Of a stretch of 46,025 bases of DNA, positions 4,433 to 46,025 are shown piece after piece; the stretch's first letter is position 1, and every line of letters begins with the position of its first letter. The position numbers and the translations under genes were made by a program. The notes below the pieces were generated by a model, which did not search any database, was not told where the DNA came from, and was given only the letters and a program-made list of their open reading frames with translations. The DNA is taken from positions 1 to 46,025 of the IMG/VR virus record IMGVR_UViG_3300042298_002521, one strand, 5' to 3'. Origin of the DNA: a virus.

Positions 4433-5182
4433 TTAGATCACCGAAACACCCCTTTCTGATACCACTTCTGAAGCCTCCTGATTAGCCTTTTGTATAGCAT
4501 ATCTTATATCCTTCTTTTCCATATAATAGAAGGCTAATGCAGCTAAGAATGTGTCTCCTGCTCCTGATACATCGCTTGTTATTTTCTTTATGCCGGGGAA
4601 GTCTTGATTGTCATAGCGCGCACCATTTCCACCTCGAGTAATGATAACTTTTTCCTTATATAGCATTGCTATTGGTTTGTTAAGCTCGTATTCCGTTTCA
4701 TTAAGCTTGATAAAATCATAGTAATCAAGTATGCCACTATTGAGATCCTTTTTTGAGTCAAGAAAAGCGATGCAATCATCTTTTTTCTCTTGGCAAATTT
4801 TACACAAATCCGACTTTGATAAAAACCCCTTATCGTAATCAGAAACTAATATGCAGTCTGCACTTTTAATAAGCTTCAGGAGGTAGCTTGTAAATTCTAT
4901 TGGCTGAGCTGTATCGTTTTCGTCAATACGAATTAAATAATGATTTGATTTTTCTTCCACATATCTTGTCTTCTTAATGTCGCTGCTAGAGAAGTGGCCC
5001 ACAATAGATGCCTTTTTCTCAATAAGAGAAAACAAGTTGTTGTATACGTTTTGCGCCATACCTCCATTTTCAACCGTTTTTAGCGGCTTAAATATTGGCA
5101 CAGGGGCTTCTGGGCTGAGCCTTGTAACTTCCCCGTACACAAAAACATCCTTACATTTTTCTCCAATGACCAAGAAGTTCAT
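4433..5182 (-). CDS. HldE N-terminal-like heptose-phosphate kinase (PfkB family)
   Basis: 249 residues of the PfkB/ribokinase family, closest in motifs to the kinase half of HldE (RfaE domain I): Arg-Leu-Ser-Pro-Glu-Ala-Pro-Val-Pro at 21-29, Gly-Gly at 40-41, Val-Ser-Asp-Tyr-Asp-Lys-Gly at 113-119, and the Gly-Ala-Gly-Asp anion hole/catalytic Asp at 207-210. HldE-N phosphorylates D-glycero-D-manno-heptose 7-phosphate at C1. It is shorter than the roughly 320-residue E. coli domain, with shortened middle loops but all key motifs. It ends the overlapping sugar operon (ATGA with the HAD gene). A related sugar substrate is possible. Confidence 0.8.
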   Translation of the reverse strand: MNFLVIGEKCKDVFVYGEVTRLSPEAPVPIFKPLKTVENGGMAQNVYNNLFSLIEKKASIVGHFSSSDIKKTRYVEEKSNHYLIRIDENDTAQPIEFTSYLLKLIKSADCILVSDYDKGFLSKSDLCKICQEKKDDCIAFLDSKKDLNSGILDYYDFIKLNETEYELNKPIAMLYKEKVIITRGGNGARYDNQDFPGIKKITSDVSGAGDTFLAALAFYYMEKKDIRYAIQKANQEASEVVSERGVSVI

Positions 5183-5620: not shown

Positions 5621-5970
5621 ACTCGGTAGCTGTCTGAGTCAAAGTGTTGGGTTGATATCTCAAAGATTTCGCCGTCCTGAAGAGCCTTTAGTTGGTGAGG
5701 CATACCGATAGGTATTGTTACAACGTCTTGCTCGTAAAGTATCTTCGTGTGCTTTTCACCCTTTTCGGTGTCAATCCAAGAAAATTCAAACTCACCTTTG
5801 TTGACGTACCAAGTCTCTTGCTTAATAATATGATAGTGCATACTAAATTGGCACCCGCTATTGAAGACAAGTATTTTGCCGCAATAAAGTTCGTTATTAA
5901 CTATAACCGTCTCTCCACCCCAACCTTTGGGAACGTGGCAGCACTCGGTACAGATTGGCTGTTTATCCAT
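5605..5970 (-). CDS. Cupin-fold sugar isomerase/epimerase-like protein
   Basis: 121 residues with a single-domain cupin pattern: Gly-Trp-Gly-Gly-Glu near the start, the metal site Met-His-Tyr-His followed by Glu (HYHIIKQETW), then Pro-Ile-Gly-Met-Pro-His-Gln, and a C-terminal Glu-Ile-Ser-Thr-Gln-His-Phe-Asp. It resembles the C-terminal half of type II mannose-6-phosphate isomerases and small cupins of polysaccharide loci. In this operon an isomerase for the sugar phosphate is plausible; no GmhA (sedoheptulose-7-phosphate isomerase) is present, so it may replace it or the host may supply that step. It overlaps both neighbours. Confidence 0.72.
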   Translation of the reverse strand: MDKQPICTECCHVPKGWGGETVIVNNELYCGKILVFNSGCQFSMHYHIIKQETWYVNKGEFEFSWIDTEKGEKHTKILYEQDVVTIPIGMPHQLKALQDGEIFEISTQHFDSDSYRVWKGN

Positions 5971-6364
5971 TTTTAATCTTGTTAATTATTTCGGTCGTTG
6001 AATGAAGTGACTTTGGGAAAAAGACAATCCGCTTGACGCTTTCAGCCCCAATAATAGTGCGGTCCTTATATTCATCGCCTATCACCATAAAGTCGGGCTT
6101 AAGCTTTTTCATCGTTAATCGTAAGTCCCAGTCTGTCTCAAAGATGTAAACTTTTTTAATAAAAGAAAAGCAGGTTAGCATATCAGCCCGAAACCCTTCA
6201 TCAAAGATAGGTCGGCTTGGGCCTTTAGACTTGCTTACTCTTAGGTCTGAGTCGATGCCAACGTGGAGTTGACCAAGTGTGGCGGCATAACGCAGTAGCT
6301 CAAAGTGTCCGGGGTGGATAATGTCAAAGCATCCGTTAACCCAGACAATTTTTTTGCGAGTCAT
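5963..6364 (-). CDS. HldE C-terminal-like sugar-phosphate nucleotidyltransferase
   Basis: 133 residues matching the second half of HldE (RfaE domain II): Asn-Gly-Cys-Phe-Asp at 10-14, the catalytic His-Pro-Gly-His at 17-20, Ser-Arg-Pro-Ile after a Lys-Gly, and Ser-Thr-Thr-Glu-Ile-Ile at 122-127, near the C-terminus. The HldE-C reaction attaches AMP from ATP to heptose 1-phosphate to give ADP-heptose. The related TagD/glycerol-3-phosphate cytidylyltransferases share the HxGH signature, so the nucleotide and sugar are not proven. It starts by ATGA overlap with the upstream ribbon-helix-helix-like gene and overlaps the cupin gene by 8 nt. Confidence 0.82.
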   Translation of the reverse strand: MTRKKIVWVNGCFDIIHPGHFELLRYAATLGQLHVGIDSDLRVSKSKGPSRPIFDEGFRADMLTCFSFIKKVYIFETDWDLRLTMKKLKPDFMVIGDEYKDRTIIGAESVKRIVFFPKSLHSTTEIINKIKNG

Positions 6365-9354: not shown

Positions 9355-9476
9355 GAAAAGTAAGAGCTAAACAGCTTAAAAGAATTGCAAAGTCGATAAC
9401 CGCGTCTTCCCCAGAGATGATGAGAAAAGTATACCGCAGACTTAAAAAAACGTGGAGTGCGAACAAGTCTAAATAG
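9351..9476 (+). CDS. Very basic 41-aa protein
   Basis: A 41-residue protein with more than a dozen Lys and Arg residues, likely helical and nucleic-acid binding. It starts inside the stop of the previous gene (ATGA), and its end overlaps the proposed GTG start of the glycosyltransferase fusion by 20 nt. Its small size keeps confidence moderate, but both overlaps fit the compact operon. Confidence 0.5.
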   Translation: MRKVRAKQLKRIAKSITASSPEMMRKVYRRLKKTWSANKSK

Positions 9477-10893
9477 CGTAACCCTTATCTGTGTTGACTG
9501 TTCAAGACACGCAGAAGCATTGGCGGCTATACGAAAAAGTATGGCTGAGTGTGATTTTGCGGCGGTCAAGTTTTTGTCCGATAGGCAGTTTTATTTTGAG
9601 GGTATTGAGTCTGTAATTATACCTAAGATAAGCTCTAAGGAAGAGTACTCAGAGTTTATAATAAAGAAGCTAATCAAGTATTTTGATACAGAATTTGTAT
9701 TGTTAATACAGCACGATGGGTATATACTGAACGGGAAGTCTTGGCTGCCAGAATTTTTGGATTACGACTACATTGGCGCTCCGTGGCTTTACTCTGACGG
9801 GAAAAATGTGGGTAATGGCGGTTTTTCTATCAGGTCCAAAAAGCTTCAAGATATATTGGCTGCAGATGATTTTATTTTTGCTTCGGATCCCGAAGATCAA
9901 GCAATAGGTCGCCTATACCGAGATTATTTAATAAAAAAGTACTCGATTAAATTTCCTTCTGAGGACATTGCTGATAAGTTCGCCTACGAACTTCGCACAC
10001 CTATTTACGACACATTCGGGTTTCACGGCAAGTTTCATAAACCCTTTCAAAAGACGGTCATTATCAAGCGAAGTGCGGCGATGGGTGATGTTATTTTGGT
10101 TGAACCCGTATTGCATTACTTTCACAAAAAAGGCTATCGGGTGGTTATTGATACACCTGAGCAATTCTATATGCTTTTTGTGAGCCATTACTTCCCCGTA
10201 CACCACATAAGCAAAATAGACGCAAGGCTTATTCCCGGAGCCGAACACTATAACCTTGATATGGCTTACGAGGCGTTGCCTAAACAGAACAGGTTGCTTA
10301 GTTACTATCAGTTTTGCGGCATCAAGGACGGGGAAATGAGAAACCCTAAATTATCGGTAGGTTTCCAACTAAGTCAATACACCAAATTATTTCCTAAATA
10401 TTGCATCATACACCTTGAGGGCATAAGACAATCTGGAAGGAATGTTTTTGGGGTGGACTGGGAAAATGTGGTAGCCAATATCCAAGCAAGGGGCTATTCG
10501 GTATTTCAAGTTGGTAAACGGAATGTGCCTCTTATCAAGAACGCTATCTATCTTAACACAATGAACGAGAATTTTTTGTGTTATGCGGTGGGAAGTGCCG
10601 ACTTCTTTATCGGAATAGATAGTGGGGTAAGCCACGTTGCGTCTGCCTTTAATGTGCCGTCAATCCTGTTTTTTGGCAATACCAACCCAGAGATTGTCCA
10701 CGCCGACCTTTCTAATAAAGTTGTCCTGACAAAAGTTGTTTGCGAAAAGCCCCACTGCTGGCACGAACAAATCGGGGTGGAAAGTAGCGAGTGTTACATT
10801 GACCCACAACTTCCCCCTTGCGCAAAATACACCACAAAAGAAGTTTTAGAAGCAATAGATAAAATAATCCAAAATGAGAATAACAACCTATAA
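9457..10893 (+). CDS. Bimodular glycosyltransferase: DUF5672 domain fused to GT9 heptosyltransferase
   Basis: 478 residues. Residues about 8-180 fit DUF5672, a presumed GT-A-like glycosyltransferase domain: Val-Thr-Leu-Ile-Cys-Val-Asp at 8-14, Gln-His-Asp-Gly-Tyr at 85-89, Gly-Ala-Pro-Trp at 107-110, Val-Gly-Asn-Gly-Gly-Phe-Ser at 118-124. From about 198 a GT9 (ADP-heptose:LPS heptosyltransferase-type) GT-B domain follows, with Ile-Ile-Lys-Arg-Ser-Ala-Ala-Met-Gly-Asp-Val at 202-212 and Gly-Ile-Asp-Ser-Gly-Val-Ser-His at 386-393. It may add two sugars in turn. The GTG start at 9457 keeps the whole first strand; no better ATG exists. It overlaps both neighbours. Confidence 0.82.
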   Translation: MRTSLNSVTLICVDCSRHAEALAAIRKSMAECDFAAVKFLSDRQFYFEGIESVIIPKISSKEEYSEFIIKKLIKYFDTEFVLLIQHDGYILNGKSWLPEFLDYDYIGAPWLYSDGKNVGNGGFSIRSKKLQDILAADDFIFASDPEDQAIGRLYRDYLIKKYSIKFPSEDIADKFAYELRTPIYDTFGFHGKFHKPFQKTVIIKRSAAMGDVILVEPVLHYFHKKGYRVVIDTPEQFYMLFVSHYFPVHHISKIDARLIPGAEHYNLDMAYEALPKQNRLLSYYQFCGIKDGEMRNPKLSVGFQLSQYTKLFPKYCIIHLEGIRQSGRNVFGVDWENVVANIQARGYSVFQVGKRNVPLIKNAIYLNTMNENFLCYAVGSADFFIGIDSGVSHVASAFNVPSILFFGNTNPEIVHADLSNKVVLTKVVCEKPHCWHEQIGVESSECYIDPQLPPCAKYTTKEVLEAIDKIIQNENNNL

Positions 10894-22593: not shown

Positions 22594-22607
22594 TCATTAA
22601 CTTAGGT

Positions 22608-22638
22608 GAGTCGCCCAGTCACATGGGCGGCTCCCTTT
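22608..22638 (+). terminator. Hairpin after the capsid gene (terminator or processing site)
   Basis: A 10-bp stem with one G-U pair (GAGTCGCCCA 22608-22617, TGGGCGGCTC 22624-22633), a 6-nt loop, followed by CCTTTGT. The T-run is short, so it may be partial: high capsid expression, then reduced read-through. It also makes an upstream GTG start (22606) for the next gene unlikely. Confidence 0.55.
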
Positions 22639-22650
22639 GTAACTAAAAAA

Positions 22651-23547
22651 ATGGGAGTAATATACAAAATAACAAGTCCTTCTGGTCGACTTTATGTAGG
22701 CAAAACGCACGATTTGCGCAAGCGAGTTAATGCGTACAAATGCGATGTAAGGAAGAATAGAAAGGATTTAAAATTACACAACAGCCTAAGAAAATACGGC
22801 TGGGATGCTCACATTTTAGAAGTGATTGAAGAAGTTGAGGACGCTATGTTGGACGAAAGGGAAATTTACTGGATTGCTGAACTTAACACTTATTGTTATA
22901 AAAATTCGAGAGGATTGAATATGACATTGGGTGGGGATGGTCAGCGTTCAACTTGGATGCACGATTTAGAAAGAAGAAGAAAACAGTCTAAGGTATTTTC
23001 TGGAGCGGGAAATCCTTTTTATGGCAAAACTCATACTGAAGAGACAAGGAGAAAACTTGCCAAGGTAATGAGTGAAAGAAATAAAAAACAAGGTATTAAA
23101 ATTCCAGAATGGGGCGCCGAAAAGGGTAGAGATACTATAAGAAGAAAAATACTTTGCTATGATTTGCAGGGTAATTTTGTAAAAGAGTATAAATCACTTT
23201 CAGCGGCTTCGGATGAATTGAAAATTCACCATTCTACCATATCTGATTCATTGCAAAAACGTAAGAGTCAAGCAAAGGGGTATGTTTTTCGTTACAAAAC
23301 CGACAGCTATCCATTAAAGATTGATGTTGGCGTAATTAAAAATAAGACTGTTAAACGCCCAATTGTTTGCGAGTATGCGGGGGAAGTTATGGTATTCGAT
23401 GGCTCCGAAGAGGCCTCACAACAGCTTGGCATACCCAAGACCACTATCAATCGTGCAGCAATGTATAATAACGGCAAGCCTATAAGGGCTGGTCACAAAT
23501 TTTTCTACAAAGAAAACCGCCCGCGTATTGCGGGGCGTGCAGCTTAA
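22651..23547 (+). CDS. GIY-YIG homing endonuclease with NUMOD-type DNA-binding repeats
   Basis: 298 residues from ATG 22651. The N-terminus has Val-Ile-Tyr-Lys-Ile and Leu-Tyr-Val-Gly-Lys-Thr, the GIY and YIG strands, with Arg26 in the following helix and a conserved-type Glu in Leu-Asp-Glu-Arg-Glu-Ile-Tyr-Trp-Ile. Next is a NUMOD3-like segment (Gly-Asn-Pro-Phe-Tyr-Gly-Lys-Thr-His-Thr-Glu-Glu-Thr-Arg), then two NUMOD1/helix-turn-helix-like units (Leu-Ser-Ala-Ala-Ser-Asp-Glu-Leu and Ser-Glu-Glu-Ala-Ser-Gln-Gln-Leu-Gly). It is free-standing, behind the capsid hairpin, and likely mobile. The base use is more A-rich than the capsid gene, fitting a late insertion. Confidence 0.88.
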   Translation: MGVIYKITSPSGRLYVGKTHDLRKRVNAYKCDVRKNRKDLKLHNSLRKYGWDAHILEVIEEVEDAMLDEREIYWIAELNTYCYKNSRGLNMTLGGDGQRSTWMHDLERRRKQSKVFSGAGNPFYGKTHTEETRRKLAKVMSERNKKQGIKIPEWGAEKGRDTIRRKILCYDLQGNFVKEYKSLSAASDELKIHHSTISDSLQKRKSQAKGYVFRYKTDSYPLKIDVGVIKNKTVKRPIVCEYAGEVMVFDGSEEASQQLGIPKTTINRAAMYNNGKPIRAGHKFFYKENRPRIAGRAA

Positions 23548-42103: not shown

Positions 42104-42631
42104 ATGCCGTTAACTCCTAATTTTAGCACCTCGCAACAGGCAGGACTTCCCTCTAACGTAATAATCACAGACACCTCTACTGGATCTGATGTAGCTATAG
42201 TTAGCCGTAGAGTTTTTTTAGTTAATTATGCCGGGGAATATGTGGTAGCCGATGGAACAACAACCAACTACACCGTTTGGCCTTTAGCGCAAAATTCAAT
42301 ATCTATCAATTGTCTATCAGCCGACACCGCGCTTCAAGTTACGGTAAACTACGTAGATGCTGGCGGAGTGACGCTCTATACCAAGACTACTCTTGCGGGC
42401 TTTACGCTATACAATCTCACCTTCTATTACTCCCTGACCCAAGGTCAAGCAGCCATTAGCAACCCTTCGTACATATTACAGGATAATACTTACTTTCAGA
42501 ACAAGGGAAAGTTAAAGACGCTTATTGAGTCAGGGAATAACGCGGTAACGCTAGGGTATGATATTACTTCAGCGCAAGTATGCTACGACTTGGCAACCTT
42601 TATGGTAAACAATCAAAATAACCTTTTCTAA
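42104..42631 (+). CDS. Tail-associated beta-rich protein, 175 aa
   Basis: Ser/Thr/Val-rich, beta-sandwich-like sequence with Val-Ile-Ile-Thr-Asp-Thr-Ser-Thr-Gly-Ser-Asp-Val, then Thr-Val-Asn-Tyr-Val-Asp-Ala-Gly-Gly-Val-Thr-Leu-Tyr, and a C-terminal helical part (Leu-Lys-Thr-Leu-Ile-Glu-Ser-Gly-Asn). Short Ig-like or neck-type proteins of this kind often lie next to fibre genes. Its stop overlaps the next start (TAATG). Confidence 0.6.
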   Translation: MPLTPNFSTSQQAGLPSNVIITDTSTGSDVAIVSRRVFLVNYAGEYVVADGTTTNYTVWPLAQNSISINCLSADTALQVTVNYVDAGGVTLYTKTTLAGFTLYNLTFYYSLTQGQAAISNPSYILQDNTYFQNKGKLKTLIESGNNAVTLGYDITSAQVCYDLATFMVNNQNNLF

Positions 42632-43152
42632 TGTTGACGGTAGCGCAAATAATAGATATTGCTAAAATATCGGAATATCTTTCTGTACTTGACGTAGAGA
42701 AAGGTTCTTTGTTTGGAAAGCGAGTTGTTCCCGAAACACCCCAGATATTGTCTAATGAAATATTTGCGGTAGAAAGCTGGTACAACCTAAATCCAGCCGA
42801 TCCTTCTTTAATAGAAACCGCCAATTATCTTTATTCTCTTTGCCGCGGTTACAACCTTCAGGCGCAACAGATTTCAGGAACAGGAGGGGTTATCACACCA
42901 GTCAATCCTACACAGATACCAAATCCGTACATCTTTGAGGTATCGCCAACGTCTATTGTACCAACAGGAGCCACATCGGCAACACTCACCGCCTTTATTG
43001 GCTTTAATGTACTTTTTGTAAGAAATGGAATACCGCAAAGTACGCTTAATCTGAATGGTGATAGCTACTTTTCTTGGAATAAGAATTTAGGTTTGTTGAC
43101 TATTCATCCTGCTGCTATCCAAAATGAAGTTTTCCAAATTTACCCGATATGA
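42631..43152 (+). CDS. Tail-associated protein, 173 aa
   Basis: The first 85 residues are helical (Ile-Asp-Ile-Ala-Lys-Ile-Ser-Glu-Tyr-Leu-Ser-Val-Leu-Asp and Pro-Ser-Leu-Ile-Glu-Thr-Ala-Asn-Tyr-Leu-Tyr-Ser-Leu), then a Gly/Val/Pro linker, then a beta domain (about 105-173) ending Glu-Val-Phe-Gln-Ile-Tyr-Pro-Ile. The helical-plus-beta layout suggests an adaptor between tail and fibre. It is coupled to both neighbours by TAATG and ATGA overlaps. Confidence 0.6.
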   Translation: MLTVAQIIDIAKISEYLSVLDVEKGSLFGKRVVPETPQILSNEIFAVESWYNLNPADPSLIETANYLYSLCRGYNLQAQQISGTGGVITPVNPTQIPNPYIFEVSPTSIVPTGATSATLTAFIGFNVLFVRNGIPQSTLNLNGDSYFSWNKNLGLLTIHPAAIQNEVFQIYPI

Positions 43153-46025
43153 TAAAAAAGATATTTGCCCTTGTTTTTGCTTTTGTAGCTGTAAAGTATT
43201 CATTTTCACAGGGTTACCCATTGCAACAAAATTTGGGAAGTGACAGCACTATTGTAATATCCAAGGGGGCTTTACAGTCAAGACTTGTTCCAATAGTCAT
43301 CACCGATACAAACGCGGCTAATGCTCAGAGGTTAAAAAGCTACCCCGGAGCGCAGCTTTATACTACGGCGGGGGATTTTTACATAAGAAATTCTAATGCT
43401 ACAAAATGGATTTTGGTGAGTTCGGGAAGTTCTGGCTCAGTAAATATTTACACGGCTGACGGAACGCTTACAGGAAACAGAACACTTACAGGAGCAAATA
43501 ACAACTTGACCTTTACGGGTCTTAACAAGTTTACTGTTAGTACAGGAGATACAACCTTATTCAATACAAACACCTTTGGTATAAAAGGGGTAGGAGGGGT
43601 TTTGAATGTTGAGGGAACTGCTGCCGGTACCACATCTTCCCTGACACTCAAGACAGCAAGCGACGGTAATTGGACTATTAGCACAGGACAAGTAAACTTC
43701 AACTCAGGAGACTTACGCTTTTACGATAATGATAACGGGGCCAATAGAATGATTATTAAGCCCTCGGGAAATGTCGGTATCGGAACAGAAACTCCCGATA
43801 GCCTTCTTACTGTTAACGGAGGGGTCTATGTTGGAGGTGGAATTAGAGCGCCGGGACTTCCCACCGCACTCGGAACAAAGGCACTTCGTATTAACGCACA
43901 AGGTCAAATATCAGTAGCAGACACAACTCTTGGAGGGGGAACCGTAATCTCTGTAGGAACAAACAATGGATCAGGTATCACAGGGGGTCCTATTACTGTT
44001 TCGGGAACTCTTGCCATTGACACCACGAATGTTATCGCCACCAAGGCTAGTGTGACGGGTGGTTTGGCCGGAAAACTCAATATCTCAGACACAGCTTCAA
44101 TGCTGAGTCCTTACCTCAGAAAGGCGGACACTACCGCAATGCTCGCCCCTTATCTAAGAGCCATTGACACAGCTTCCCTCAGCAATAGAATTAACCTCAA
44201 ATTAAATATCTCAGACACCGCCTCAATGCTTGGCAACTACCTAAACAACGTAGGGTACGGGCTTAGCAAAGTAGGGCAGGTAGCATCAGCCGACTCAGCC
44301 ACCTTATCGGCATATTATCTTAGAAGAAAGGACTCTCTAACCACTACCAACCCGCTGGGTTACGTCACCAAAAAGATATTGGCAGACACCGCCGCAGCTA
44401 TCCGATCCTCAGACGCAGGCGGAACAGTAACTTCGGTAGCAACCAACAACGGGACAGGTATTACGGGGGGTACAATCACCACATCGGGTACAATTGCAGC
44501 CGATACCTTACTATTATCAACCCGAGCTTGGAGACAAAAGGGTGTAGACTCAGTAGCTGCGTTAATAAACAATAATATATCTGGAACAACCAATTATATC
44601 CCACGATTTAGTTCTACTAATGCTATAGACAATAGCATAATGAGAGAAAGTGGAACCAGAATAGGTATTAATACTTCCCCTTTTTACAACTTAGATATTC
44701 TTGAAGCTGGATCAGCTACAATAGGGGCTGGAACTGCTAATAATAAGATAGTACTAAATGGTGATGATAATGGCGGTAGTATATCTACAACTAATACAAC
44801 ATATATAAGTTTTGCACCCTTCCAGACAGAGGCTATGAGAATAACTTCAAGCGGGGTAGTTAATATAGGGGCAAATTTTACTAACAACTCTAATAAGTTA
44901 AATGTTGGGGGAAGTGCCACTATTGGATATTCTACAAATGTGGTAGGCCCAACAAATGGATTGTCTGTCAATGGTAGTGTCGGTATTGGCTTAAATGGAG
45001 TCAGCACCGACTCAGCCCTATCTGTTCTTAATGGGGCATACTTCCAAAGGGGGGTACGAATGTCAGGACTTCCCTCTGCACCCGGAACCAAGGCCTTACG
45101 CATAGATGCTGCTGGAACAATCTCTATTGCAGATACTTTAATAGATGCTGGGGGAACCGTTACTTCAGTTGCCACCAATAACGGAACGGGAATTACGGGC
45201 GGAACAATCACCACTTCGGGAACCCTCGCAATAGACACGACTGTAATTAGCACACGGGCTTGGAGACAAAAGGGTATTGATAGTGTGGCTGCCTTAATTA
45301 ATTCTAATGTCTCGGGAACAACCAACTATGTATCTAAGTTTACAGGAACCAATACGTTAGGTAATAGCCAGATTTTTGACAACGGGACAAATGTGGGAAT
45401 AGCCAACGCGTTACCGTCGCAAAAATTTGAAGTTGGTGATGGAACCCAGACAGGTCAACAGTTTGCAAGATTTAGCTTTTCGGCGACTAATCTTTATTTA
45501 GGTCAATCAAGCGGAACCGCATTTGGTCAATCGGCCGGGTCTGCTTCTCTTATATTAAGCGACCAAAACAATCCGCTTGCGATAGGGACTAATCAAAATC
45601 AGCCAATGATATTTGGCACCAATAATAGCGAGCGCATGAGGGTTGCCTCTACGGGTAATGTAGGGATTGGCACATCCTCTCCCGACAGTATGCTCACAGT
45701 TACGCAAGGGGCTCATATACAAAGAGGTGTGCGACTATCAGGACTTCCCACAGCACCCGGCACAAGATCTCTTAGGATAGATGCAAATGGTACTTTATCA
45801 GTATCAGATACTTTAGCTAATGGTATGTCAGGATCCGGCACCCCCAACTACATACCCAAGTTTACAGGTTCAAGTTCAATAGGAAACTCAGTTATTTATG
45901 AGAGCAGTTCCAATATAGGAATTGGTACAATTTCTCCCAACTATCCTTTACACATAAATAGTACAAGTAACGCAAGAATTGGTGTTCAGGGAACAACCAA
46001 TTTTAGTGCCTTTCAAAATATAAAT
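43149..46025 (+). CDS. Tail fibre with signal peptide, partial (runs off the right end)
   Basis: 959 codons without a stop up to the window edge. It starts by ATGA overlap. Residues 1-21 (Met-Ile-Lys-Lys, a hydrophobic core, Phe-Ser-Gln-Gly) form a Sec signal peptide. The rest is Gly/Thr/Ser/Asn-rich and repetitive: three copies of a Gly-Gly-Thr-Val-x-Ser-Val unit with Gly-Ile-Thr-Gly-Gly (from about 43935, 44418 and 45150) and three modules from a Val-Gly-Ile-Gly motif to Gly-Leu-Pro-x-Ala and an Arg-Ile-(Asn/Asp)-Ala turn. Such repeats are typical of trimeric fibres ending in an endosialidase-type intramolecular chaperone (peptidase S74), which would lie beyond the window. Confidence 0.8.
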   Translation, partial: MIKKIFALVFAFVAVKYSFSQGYPLQQNLGSDSTIVISKGALQSRLVPIVITDTNAANAQRLKSYPGAQLYTTAGDFYIRNSNATKWILVSSGSSGSVNIYTADGTLTGNRTLTGANNNLTFTGLNKFTVSTGDTTLFNTNTFGIKGVGGVLNVEGTAAGTTSSLTLKTASDGNWTISTGQVNFNSGDLRFYDNDNGANRMIIKPSGNVGIGTETPDSLLTVNGGVYVGGGIRAPGLPTALGTKALRINAQGQISVADTTLGGGTVISVGTNNGSGITGGPITVSGTLAIDTTNVIATKASVTGGLAGKLNISDTASMLSPYLRKADTTAMLAPYLRAIDTASLSNRINLKLNISDTASMLGNYLNNVGYGLSKVGQVASADSATLSAYYLRRKDSLTTTNPLGYVTKKILADTAAAIRSSDAGGTVTSVATNNGTGITGGTITTSGTIAADTLLLSTRAWRQKGVDSVAALINNNISGTTNYIPRFSSTNAIDNSIMRESGTRIGINTSPFYNLDILEAGSATIGAGTANNKIVLNGDDNGGSISTTNTTYISFAPFQTEAMRITSSGVVNIGANFTNNSNKLNVGGSATIGYSTNVVGPTNGLSVNGSVGIGLNGVSTDSALSVLNGAYFQRGVRMSGLPSAPGTKALRIDAAGTISIADTLIDAGGTVTSVATNNGTGITGGTITTSGTLAIDTTVISTRAWRQKGIDSVAALINSNVSGTTNYVSKFTGTNTLGNSQIFDNGTNVGIANALPSQKFEVGDGTQTGQQFARFSFSATNLYLGQSSGTAFGQSAGSASLILSDQNNPLAIGTNQNQPMIFGTNNSERMRVASTGNVGIGTSSPDSMLTVTQGAHIQRGVRLSGLPTAPGTRSLRIDANGTLSVSDTLANGMSGSGTPNYIPKFTGSSSIGNSVIYESSSNIGIGTISPNYPLHINSTSNARIGVQGTTNFSAFQNIN

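Follow-up and report, generated by a model that had tools for sequence, protein, structure and literature searches.

A conserved Sec-type signal peptide on the predicted tail fibre of a podovirus-like Bacteroidota phage

Tailed-phage fibres are generally taken as cytoplasmic proteins. Here we describe a tail-fibre-like open reading frame (ORF; 43149..46025, plus strand) that opens with a Sec-type signal peptide, a feature recurring in related phages; it belongs to an uncultivated phage and lies in the virus record IMGVR_UViG_3300042298_002521, whose whole stretch of 46,025 bases is referred to below as the window (G000 in our analysis). In the reading that we consider rather probable, the fibre is exported, processed and probably O-glycosylated in the host periplasm, and joins the virions around lysis. 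The ORF has an ATG start and 959 codons, is open at the 3' end of the contig, and matched the PHROG tail fibre families phrog_9942 (E 7.8e-10) and phrog_18345 (E 1.1e-5), while Pfam and NCBIfam returned nothing above cut-off for it. Both its location among late structural genes and its family similarity are those of a tailed-phage tail fibre, in agreement with an earlier note that had placed here a tail-fibre gene with a Sec signal peptide. By its terminase and portal (22-28% identity) the phage is placed close to Flavobacteriia podoviruses, namely Elemovirus, Callevirus and the Pachyviridae that infect Flavobacterium and Cellulophaga, and the best explanation of the gene product is a protein of the tail fibre or of an appendage in a podovirus-like Bacteroidota phage.

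The leader occupies codons 1-20 (MIKKIFALVFAFVAVKYSFS; 43149..43208, +) and is followed by Gln-Gly, the Gln codon (43209..43211, +) standing at the predicted +1 position of signal peptidase I cleavage. A basic n-region, a hydrophobic core, Ser at -3 and -1, Gln at +1 and no lipobox Cys give it the sequence features of a Bacteroidota Sec/signal peptidase I substrate. According to PMC5837995, Gln occupies +1 in a mean 71% of the predicted signal peptidase I substrates of Bacteroidetes, the so-called Q-rule, and is cyclised to pyroglutamate. Our leader score, a home-made heuristic and not SignalP, was positive in 2 of the 115 window ORFs of at least 60 amino acids (aa), namely the fibre ORF and an antisense ORF inside it. 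Two neighbouring genes served to find relatives: the preceding 173-aa gene (42631..43152, +), a conserved partner upstream of the fibre whose TGA stop overlaps the ATG of the fibre ORF, and a 175-aa connector/appendage-like gene (42104..42631, +) with a weak match to the 'appendage' family phrog_29955 (E 0.003). Used as a query, the former retrieved 11 related contigs (L001-L011), and downstream of it a leader-led fibre-like ORF was found in all 11, the score being positive despite differing leader sequences; this extends to L011, although its 173-aa-gene neighbour is only 30% identical. Under a model of random substitution the score of the leader was kept in 411 of 1000 trials at 8 amino-acid changes and in 173 of 1000 at 12. 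An alignment of the connector-like gene then enlarged the set, within IMG/VR, to 30 contigs (the 11 known and 19 new), whose copies of this gene share 24-87% identity with the query. Behind the connector pair, 26 of them carry a leader-led ORF by a score which, here and in the scan of genome loci discussed below, picked, among the start codons close to the beginning of the ORF, the one that scored best and thus favours positives; several of these fibre ORFs are open at the contig end. The leader-led ORF follows the pair directly or after other genes, these being endonuclease-like ORFs in three contigs and leaderless fibre-like ORFs in L175, L177 and L184. Since L178 has two leader-led ORFs, of 342 and 763 codons, the leader alignment comprised 28 sequences (window, 26 contigs and the second L178 ORF): all 28 have Gln at +1 and Ser, Ala or Gly at -1, and they form 24 clusters at 90% identity and 16 at 50%, with the +1 Gln in each of the 16. 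In the phage relatives, what follows the leader is an N-terminal domain at whose start the pattern Q(x)YP(I/L/V) recurs. Judged by its sequence, the leader is therefore a genuine-looking bacterial signal of the Sec/signal peptidase I type, conserved beyond what random substitution would leave, and since it is of Sec type with the Gln typical of Bacteroidota at +1, export is the natural prediction.

The fibre carries a further mark of exported Bacteroidota proteins. According to PMC8729774, O-glycans are added to exported proteins of Bacteroidota at (D)(S/T)(A/I/L/V/M/T), a motif later extended to S/G/C/F at the third position, and in B. fragilis the motif is glycosylated only on exported proteins. 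The window fibre, predicted to be exported, has this O-glycoprotein motif 20 times within 43242..45815 (+), with about 4 expected. A first small count was mixed, showing enrichment in the window and none in L007-L009 or phi18:3, and the larger set showed it for the window clade and not for Cellulophaga. In 25 of the 28 leader-led fibres (L163, L168 and L173 were left out as close to L164, L171 and L172), D(S/T)phi occurs 348 times against 112.7 in shuffled sequences, about 3-fold, in 338 contexts distinct within their own protein. Control motifs in the same fibres gave 16 against 31.1 for E(S/T)phi, 230 against 238.2 for N(S/T)phi, 108 against 115.4 for the reversed motif and 103 against 153.5 for D(S/T)nonphi. 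Each of the 16 cluster representatives exceeds expectation, 15 of them with p < 0.02 (summed, 220 against 68). A scan residue by residue returned the motif itself: Asp at position 1 (2.98, the next being Gly at 1.31), Ser (3.3) and Thr (2.7) at position 2 (His 1.37 on 5 sites), and Ala, Ile, Leu, Val and Thr at position 3, together with 5 sites with Cys and a slight excess of Ser (1.39). The enrichment is absent from leaderless fibre-like proteins of the same loci (n=7, picked by eye, with L180 and L182 left out; 11 against 17.8), from upstream virion ORFs (n=45; 72 against 101.8), from the window virion genes taken together (n=11; 20 against 18.5, the portal alone giving 6 against 1.6) and from host leader-led proteins (n=21, from 21 of 65 loci; 30 against 44.8). 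Among 17 host relatives tested one by one, 13 fall below expectation, and the only clear enrichment is in two Chitinophaga proteins (7 against 1.0 and 7 against 2.6), a weak hint of a host among the Chitinophagaceae. From these counts, the fibre of the window clade is probably O-glycosylated in the periplasm.

Leader-led proteins have also been reported in the virions of other Bacteroidota phages. We scored 88 complete coding sequences (CDS) of six Cellulophaga phages annotated in GenBank as detected by tandem mass spectrometry (MS/MS) or as 'part of structural virion', among those listed in the stretches covered; two CDS cut at the edge, gp078 of phi14:2 and gp038 of phi4:1, were left out. 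The score flagged 13 of the 88, and 11 were judged to be true leaders, in three of the phages: gp085-087 of the podovirus phi18:3 (3 of 12), gp101-104 of phi19:1 (4 of 14) and gp091-094 of phi10:1 (4 of 12). None was accepted in phi40:1 (0 of 14), phi14:2 (0 of 16) or phi4:1 (0 of 20). Gln stands at +1, as [A/S/G]|Q, in 10 of the 11, a leader form that they share with the window fibre. They are encoded in runs of three or four neighbouring genes of fibre or pectate-lyase type, placed before lysis-type genes: past some other genes comes one for a glycosyl hydrolase or a lysozyme. Several relatives are annotated as tail fiber or pectate lyase. In two of the three Cellulophaga families, the leader and the next 60-118 residues or so form a module to which varying C-terminal parts are attached; such modules occur in members of the Pachyviridae, Assiduviridae and Duneviridae. 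As a separate observation, L016:9545-11902 and its relatives (Cellulophaga, several annotated pectate lyase) have an N-terminal module more than 80% identical in most of them and a remainder that differs; these L016-type proteins are possibly exported depolymerases.

The earlier note had likened the leader to those of host secreted proteins with GIG repeats, and this likeness holds: the leader is of Sec type with the Bacteroidota +1 Gln, GIG repeats are present in the fibre ORF, and Bacteroidota secreted proteins with QVGINT and NIY-DGTLT-NRT modules (e.g. of Chryseobacterium and Chitinophaga) have a Sec-type leader, often with +1 Gln, and modules as in the fibre. A profile of the N-terminal 124 residues returned, among viral contigs, only the ten already known and, among genomes, at least 65 loci, 59 of those listed being titled Bacteroidota; the seeds of the genome scan lay near residues 60-69 and 99-108, and relatives sharing only residues 21-60 would escape it. 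A leader-led ORF is present, by the permissive score, in 51 of the 65 listed loci. Nevertheless, 62 of the 65 listed matches begin at residue 66 or later, mostly with the NIYxxDGTLTxNRTLTG module (NIYTADGTLTGNRTLTG in the window; 43443..43493, +), and those reaching further upstream are L094 (residues 2-115), L096 (35-122) and L083 (41-122), all 30-34% identical. Thus, the comparison of the N-terminus with host proteins that the note had proposed bears out shared modules and finds residues before 66 rarely matched: by sequence, the GIG/NIY modules are common to host secreted proteins, whereas the leader-bearing N-terminal part, whose mature portion spans residues 21-65 (QGYPLQQNLGSDSTIVISKG...; 43209..43343, +), is almost phage-only among the matches listed. 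A whole-length relation of the fibre to QVGINT-type secreted proteins, N-terminal domain included, was not found among them. Around the two Chitinophaga loci checked, none of six neighbours matched PHROG, and Pfam found cell-type domains beside one of the two.

Taken together, these data suggest an assembly route in which the fibre would be made as a precursor that the Sec machinery of the host moves through the inner membrane. Signal peptidase I would cut before Gln21, which would then probably be cyclised to pyroglutamate, and the mature fibre, having no lipobox and, to judge from the ends of ten complete relatives, no sorting domain, would accumulate in the periplasm and there, in the window clade, receive O-glycans at D(S/T)(A/I/L/V/T) sites. 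Capsids and tails would meanwhile assemble in the cytoplasm without the fibre; at lysis, with the membrane barrier gone, mature fibres could meet the particles and dock through the conserved N-terminal domain. For the window protein we infer each of these elements, from export, cleavage and glycosylation to the periplasmic pool, docking at lysis and virion membership. A late, lysis-linked role fits the gene order of several relatives, in which the fibre is followed by a small leader-led protein, a lipoprotein (spanin-like by eye) and an endolysin-like gene, that of L169 with a GH19 match. More tentatively, and with rather less confidence than we place in the route for the fibre itself, a whole class of Bacteroidota tailed phages might finish its virions outside the cytoplasm, using the Sec, signal peptidase I and glutaminyl cyclase route, host O-glycans in one clade, attachment at lysis, and the N-terminus made by cleavage as the docking end.

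An exported protein need not be a virion protein, and the most serious competitor of this route, to which we attach an appreciable if clearly smaller probability, is that the product masks receptors, blocks superinfection, binds debris or aids release, the Cellulophaga proteins being co-purifying contaminants. The leader alone predicts export, the GIG/NIY modules are those of host secreted proteins, the small leader-led protein and lysis-type genes lie nearby in several relatives, and the extra leaderless fibre-like ORF seen by eye in L175, L177, L178, L184 and L186 could be the virion fibre. Against it stand the annotation of 11 leader-led proteins from virion MS/MS in three Cellulophaga phages, the place of the window fibre gene directly behind connector-like genes, and PHROG matches to tail-fibre, tail-spike or virion-protein families for the window fibre and several relatives (none for L011, L175 and L185). 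Alternatively, the leader might stay uncut, as a hydrophobic anchor helix fixing the fibre in the tail or the membrane. Hydrophobic termini do occur in some virion proteins, and a low-confidence AlphaFold2 model shows residues 2-20 as helical; yet an anchor has no need of small -1 residues and a +1 Gln in 28 of 28 leaders, and the sequon enrichment points to the periplasm, so that we find an anchor improbable.

Still less probable is the capture of an entire host surface-protein gene, its leader left over and functionless in the phage; simple capture is one of two origins offered by the earlier note. Leaders and NIY/GIG modules are indeed common in Bacteroidota proteins, as the leader-led loci attest, and L083, L094 and L096 match further upstream; however, even deeply diverged relatives keep a leader that looks functional, the adjoining part recurs with it in phages and is almost phage-only among the matches listed, the same arrangement exists in phage proteins without detectable homology, and most host relatives lie below expectation for the very sequon that the phage fibres have accumulated. 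The other origin, export with action at the cell surface, survives insofar as export is the natural prediction from the leader, but the either/or omits a third option, given that leader-led proteins are also reported in the virions of Cellulophaga phages. As for a true start codon downstream that would leave the leader untranslated, the in-frame TTG codons at 43221 and 43233 could serve it; nonetheless, the ATG at the leader start is kept in 12 of 12 sequences (window and the 11 first relatives), and the leader has a conserved amino-acid pattern. The ATG persists even in L003, L004 and L010, where homing-endonuclease-like ORFs (L003:6519-7274, L004:6516-7269 and L010:6516-7268) directly separate the connector-like gene from the start of the fibre, and the fibre still begins at the corresponding ATG; the one scanned, that of L003, has GIY-YIG and NUMOD domains by Pfam, and that of L004 is split into two frames. 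We thus hold a downstream start to be barely conceivable.

Several observations weigh against the export-and-docking route, or narrow it. The virion status of the Cellulophaga proteins comes from GenBank notes, and secreted proteins could co-purify; the case for the window-clade fibre as a virion part rests by analogy on its likeness to these MS/MS-annotated proteins. Two flagged Cellulophaga proteins were judged non-leaders, a weak one of phi40:1 (17.1) and one of phi4:1 (47.9) without the Gln and transmembrane-like. Between the window N-terminus and two of the three Cellulophaga N-terminal families no reliable homology was found (probability 5-8%; the third, A3, was outside the comparison), which makes more than one origin or exchange of the leader feature probable. 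In the 11 Cellulophaga leader-led proteins the sequon is scarcer than expected (12 against 33.1), and glycosylation therefore cannot be general to leader-led virion proteins. Within the window clade, position 3 shows no excess of Met (1 against 2.7 expected), L186 reaches only p ~0.06, and the L007-L009 fibres are hardly enriched. Moreover, a D(S/T)phi-x(x)-L/M/I context, enriched 5.4-fold, accounts for 173 of the 348 sites, the remainder being enriched 2.07-fold, and repeated structural elements may thus explain part of the excess. The AlphaFold2 model of the N-terminus was useless (pLDDT, the predicted local distance difference test, 51). Finally, four of the 30 contigs, the closely related L179-L182, have a leaderless fibre at this place, and five of the 26 leader-led ones carry the extra leaderless fibre-like ORF named above; the leaderless fibre of L179-L182 and the leaderless tail proteins of phi40:1, phi14:2 and phi4:1 indicate that a leader is not needed in general.

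Related podoviruses offer leaderless tail fibres for comparison. The fibres of elemoF and of contigs L179-L182 and gp085 of phi40:1, annotated as chaperone of endosialidase PF13884, are tail-fibre-type proteins as is that of the window, and the TerL and portal of elemoF and phi40:1 are related to those of the window, but they have no leader and, in those tested, no sequon enrichment. The L179-L182 fibre is collagen-like with a GTSGS repeat (L181:8067-13181; L179:8067 on). Virion proteins made with Sec signal peptides are familiar from the filamentous phages, whose coat proteins pIII and pVIII, unlike the fibre proposed here to attach to cytoplasmic tailed particles at lysis, are assembled in the membrane during extrusion. 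PMC6199706 states that the target proteins of phage diversity-generating retroelements lack detectable signal peptides, and 2 and 1 signal peptides were counted in the Bacteroides phages Brb01 and Brb02, no fibre being named in that passage of PMC5723332. Among the papers listed in searches of the open-licence full-text literature, which omits most subscription journals, we recognised none that describes Sec leaders on tailed-phage fibres; the tail fibre is of a known kind, and its assembly route is possibly new. Among isolate phages, relatives of the window fibre were limited to weak matches to four phage records, one of Thermus and three of Pelagibacter; the L011 N-terminus gave none and the L009 C-terminus 3 records. 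If such fibres are secreted, completion of the virion becomes a two-compartment process dependent on host export and perhaps on glycosylation. Fibres produced in the cytoplasm of E. coli might then miss steps that they naturally undergo; receptor binding could be adjusted by host glycans, and the secreted protein could keep phages from infecting debris and neighbours again. Simple sequence tests for fibres of this sort, and a hint to Bacteroidota hosts, come from the leader together with the Q-rule and the sequon.

The C-terminal ends were considered in relatives, the 3' end of the window gene being missing. The S74-type end expected in the earlier note did not appear in them: S74 was matched neither by the C-terminal 400 residues of any of 10 complete relatives (two close to each other) nor by the whole fibres of L005, L007, L009 and L010. 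Neither did a sorting domain of the type IX secretion system match the C-terminal 400 aa of the 10 complete relatives, and on the strength of these relatives we set aside a reading of the fibre as cargo of that system. A hint of disulfides was likewise dropped as uninformative, the first 12 fibres being nearly free of Cys (0-2 each) and 7 of 14 other window proteins counted being also Cys-free. After the fibre, a second small leader-led protein of about 120-136 aa is encoded at L005:11881-12291, L007:9682-10047, L009:10125-10493 and L010:9996-10373.

Elsewhere in the window, the phage encodes split HldE-like parts and a heptosyltransferase-like protein with DUF5672 and GT9 (4433-5182, minus; 5963-6364, minus; 9457-10893, plus). 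The kinase part resembles heptose-7-phosphate kinase (TIGR02198, E 2.3e-32) and the second part heptose-1-phosphate adenylyltransferase (TIGR02199, E 5.9e-28), both under the curated cut-off; these HldE-like and GT9 genes may serve surface-sugar remodelling or glycosylation of a product. A homing-endonuclease gene matching GIY-YIG/HNH-type PHROGs lies within the head gene cluster (22606-23547, plus), and a further endonuclease-like ORF, recognised by eye, precedes the 173-aa gene at L007:5387-5983.

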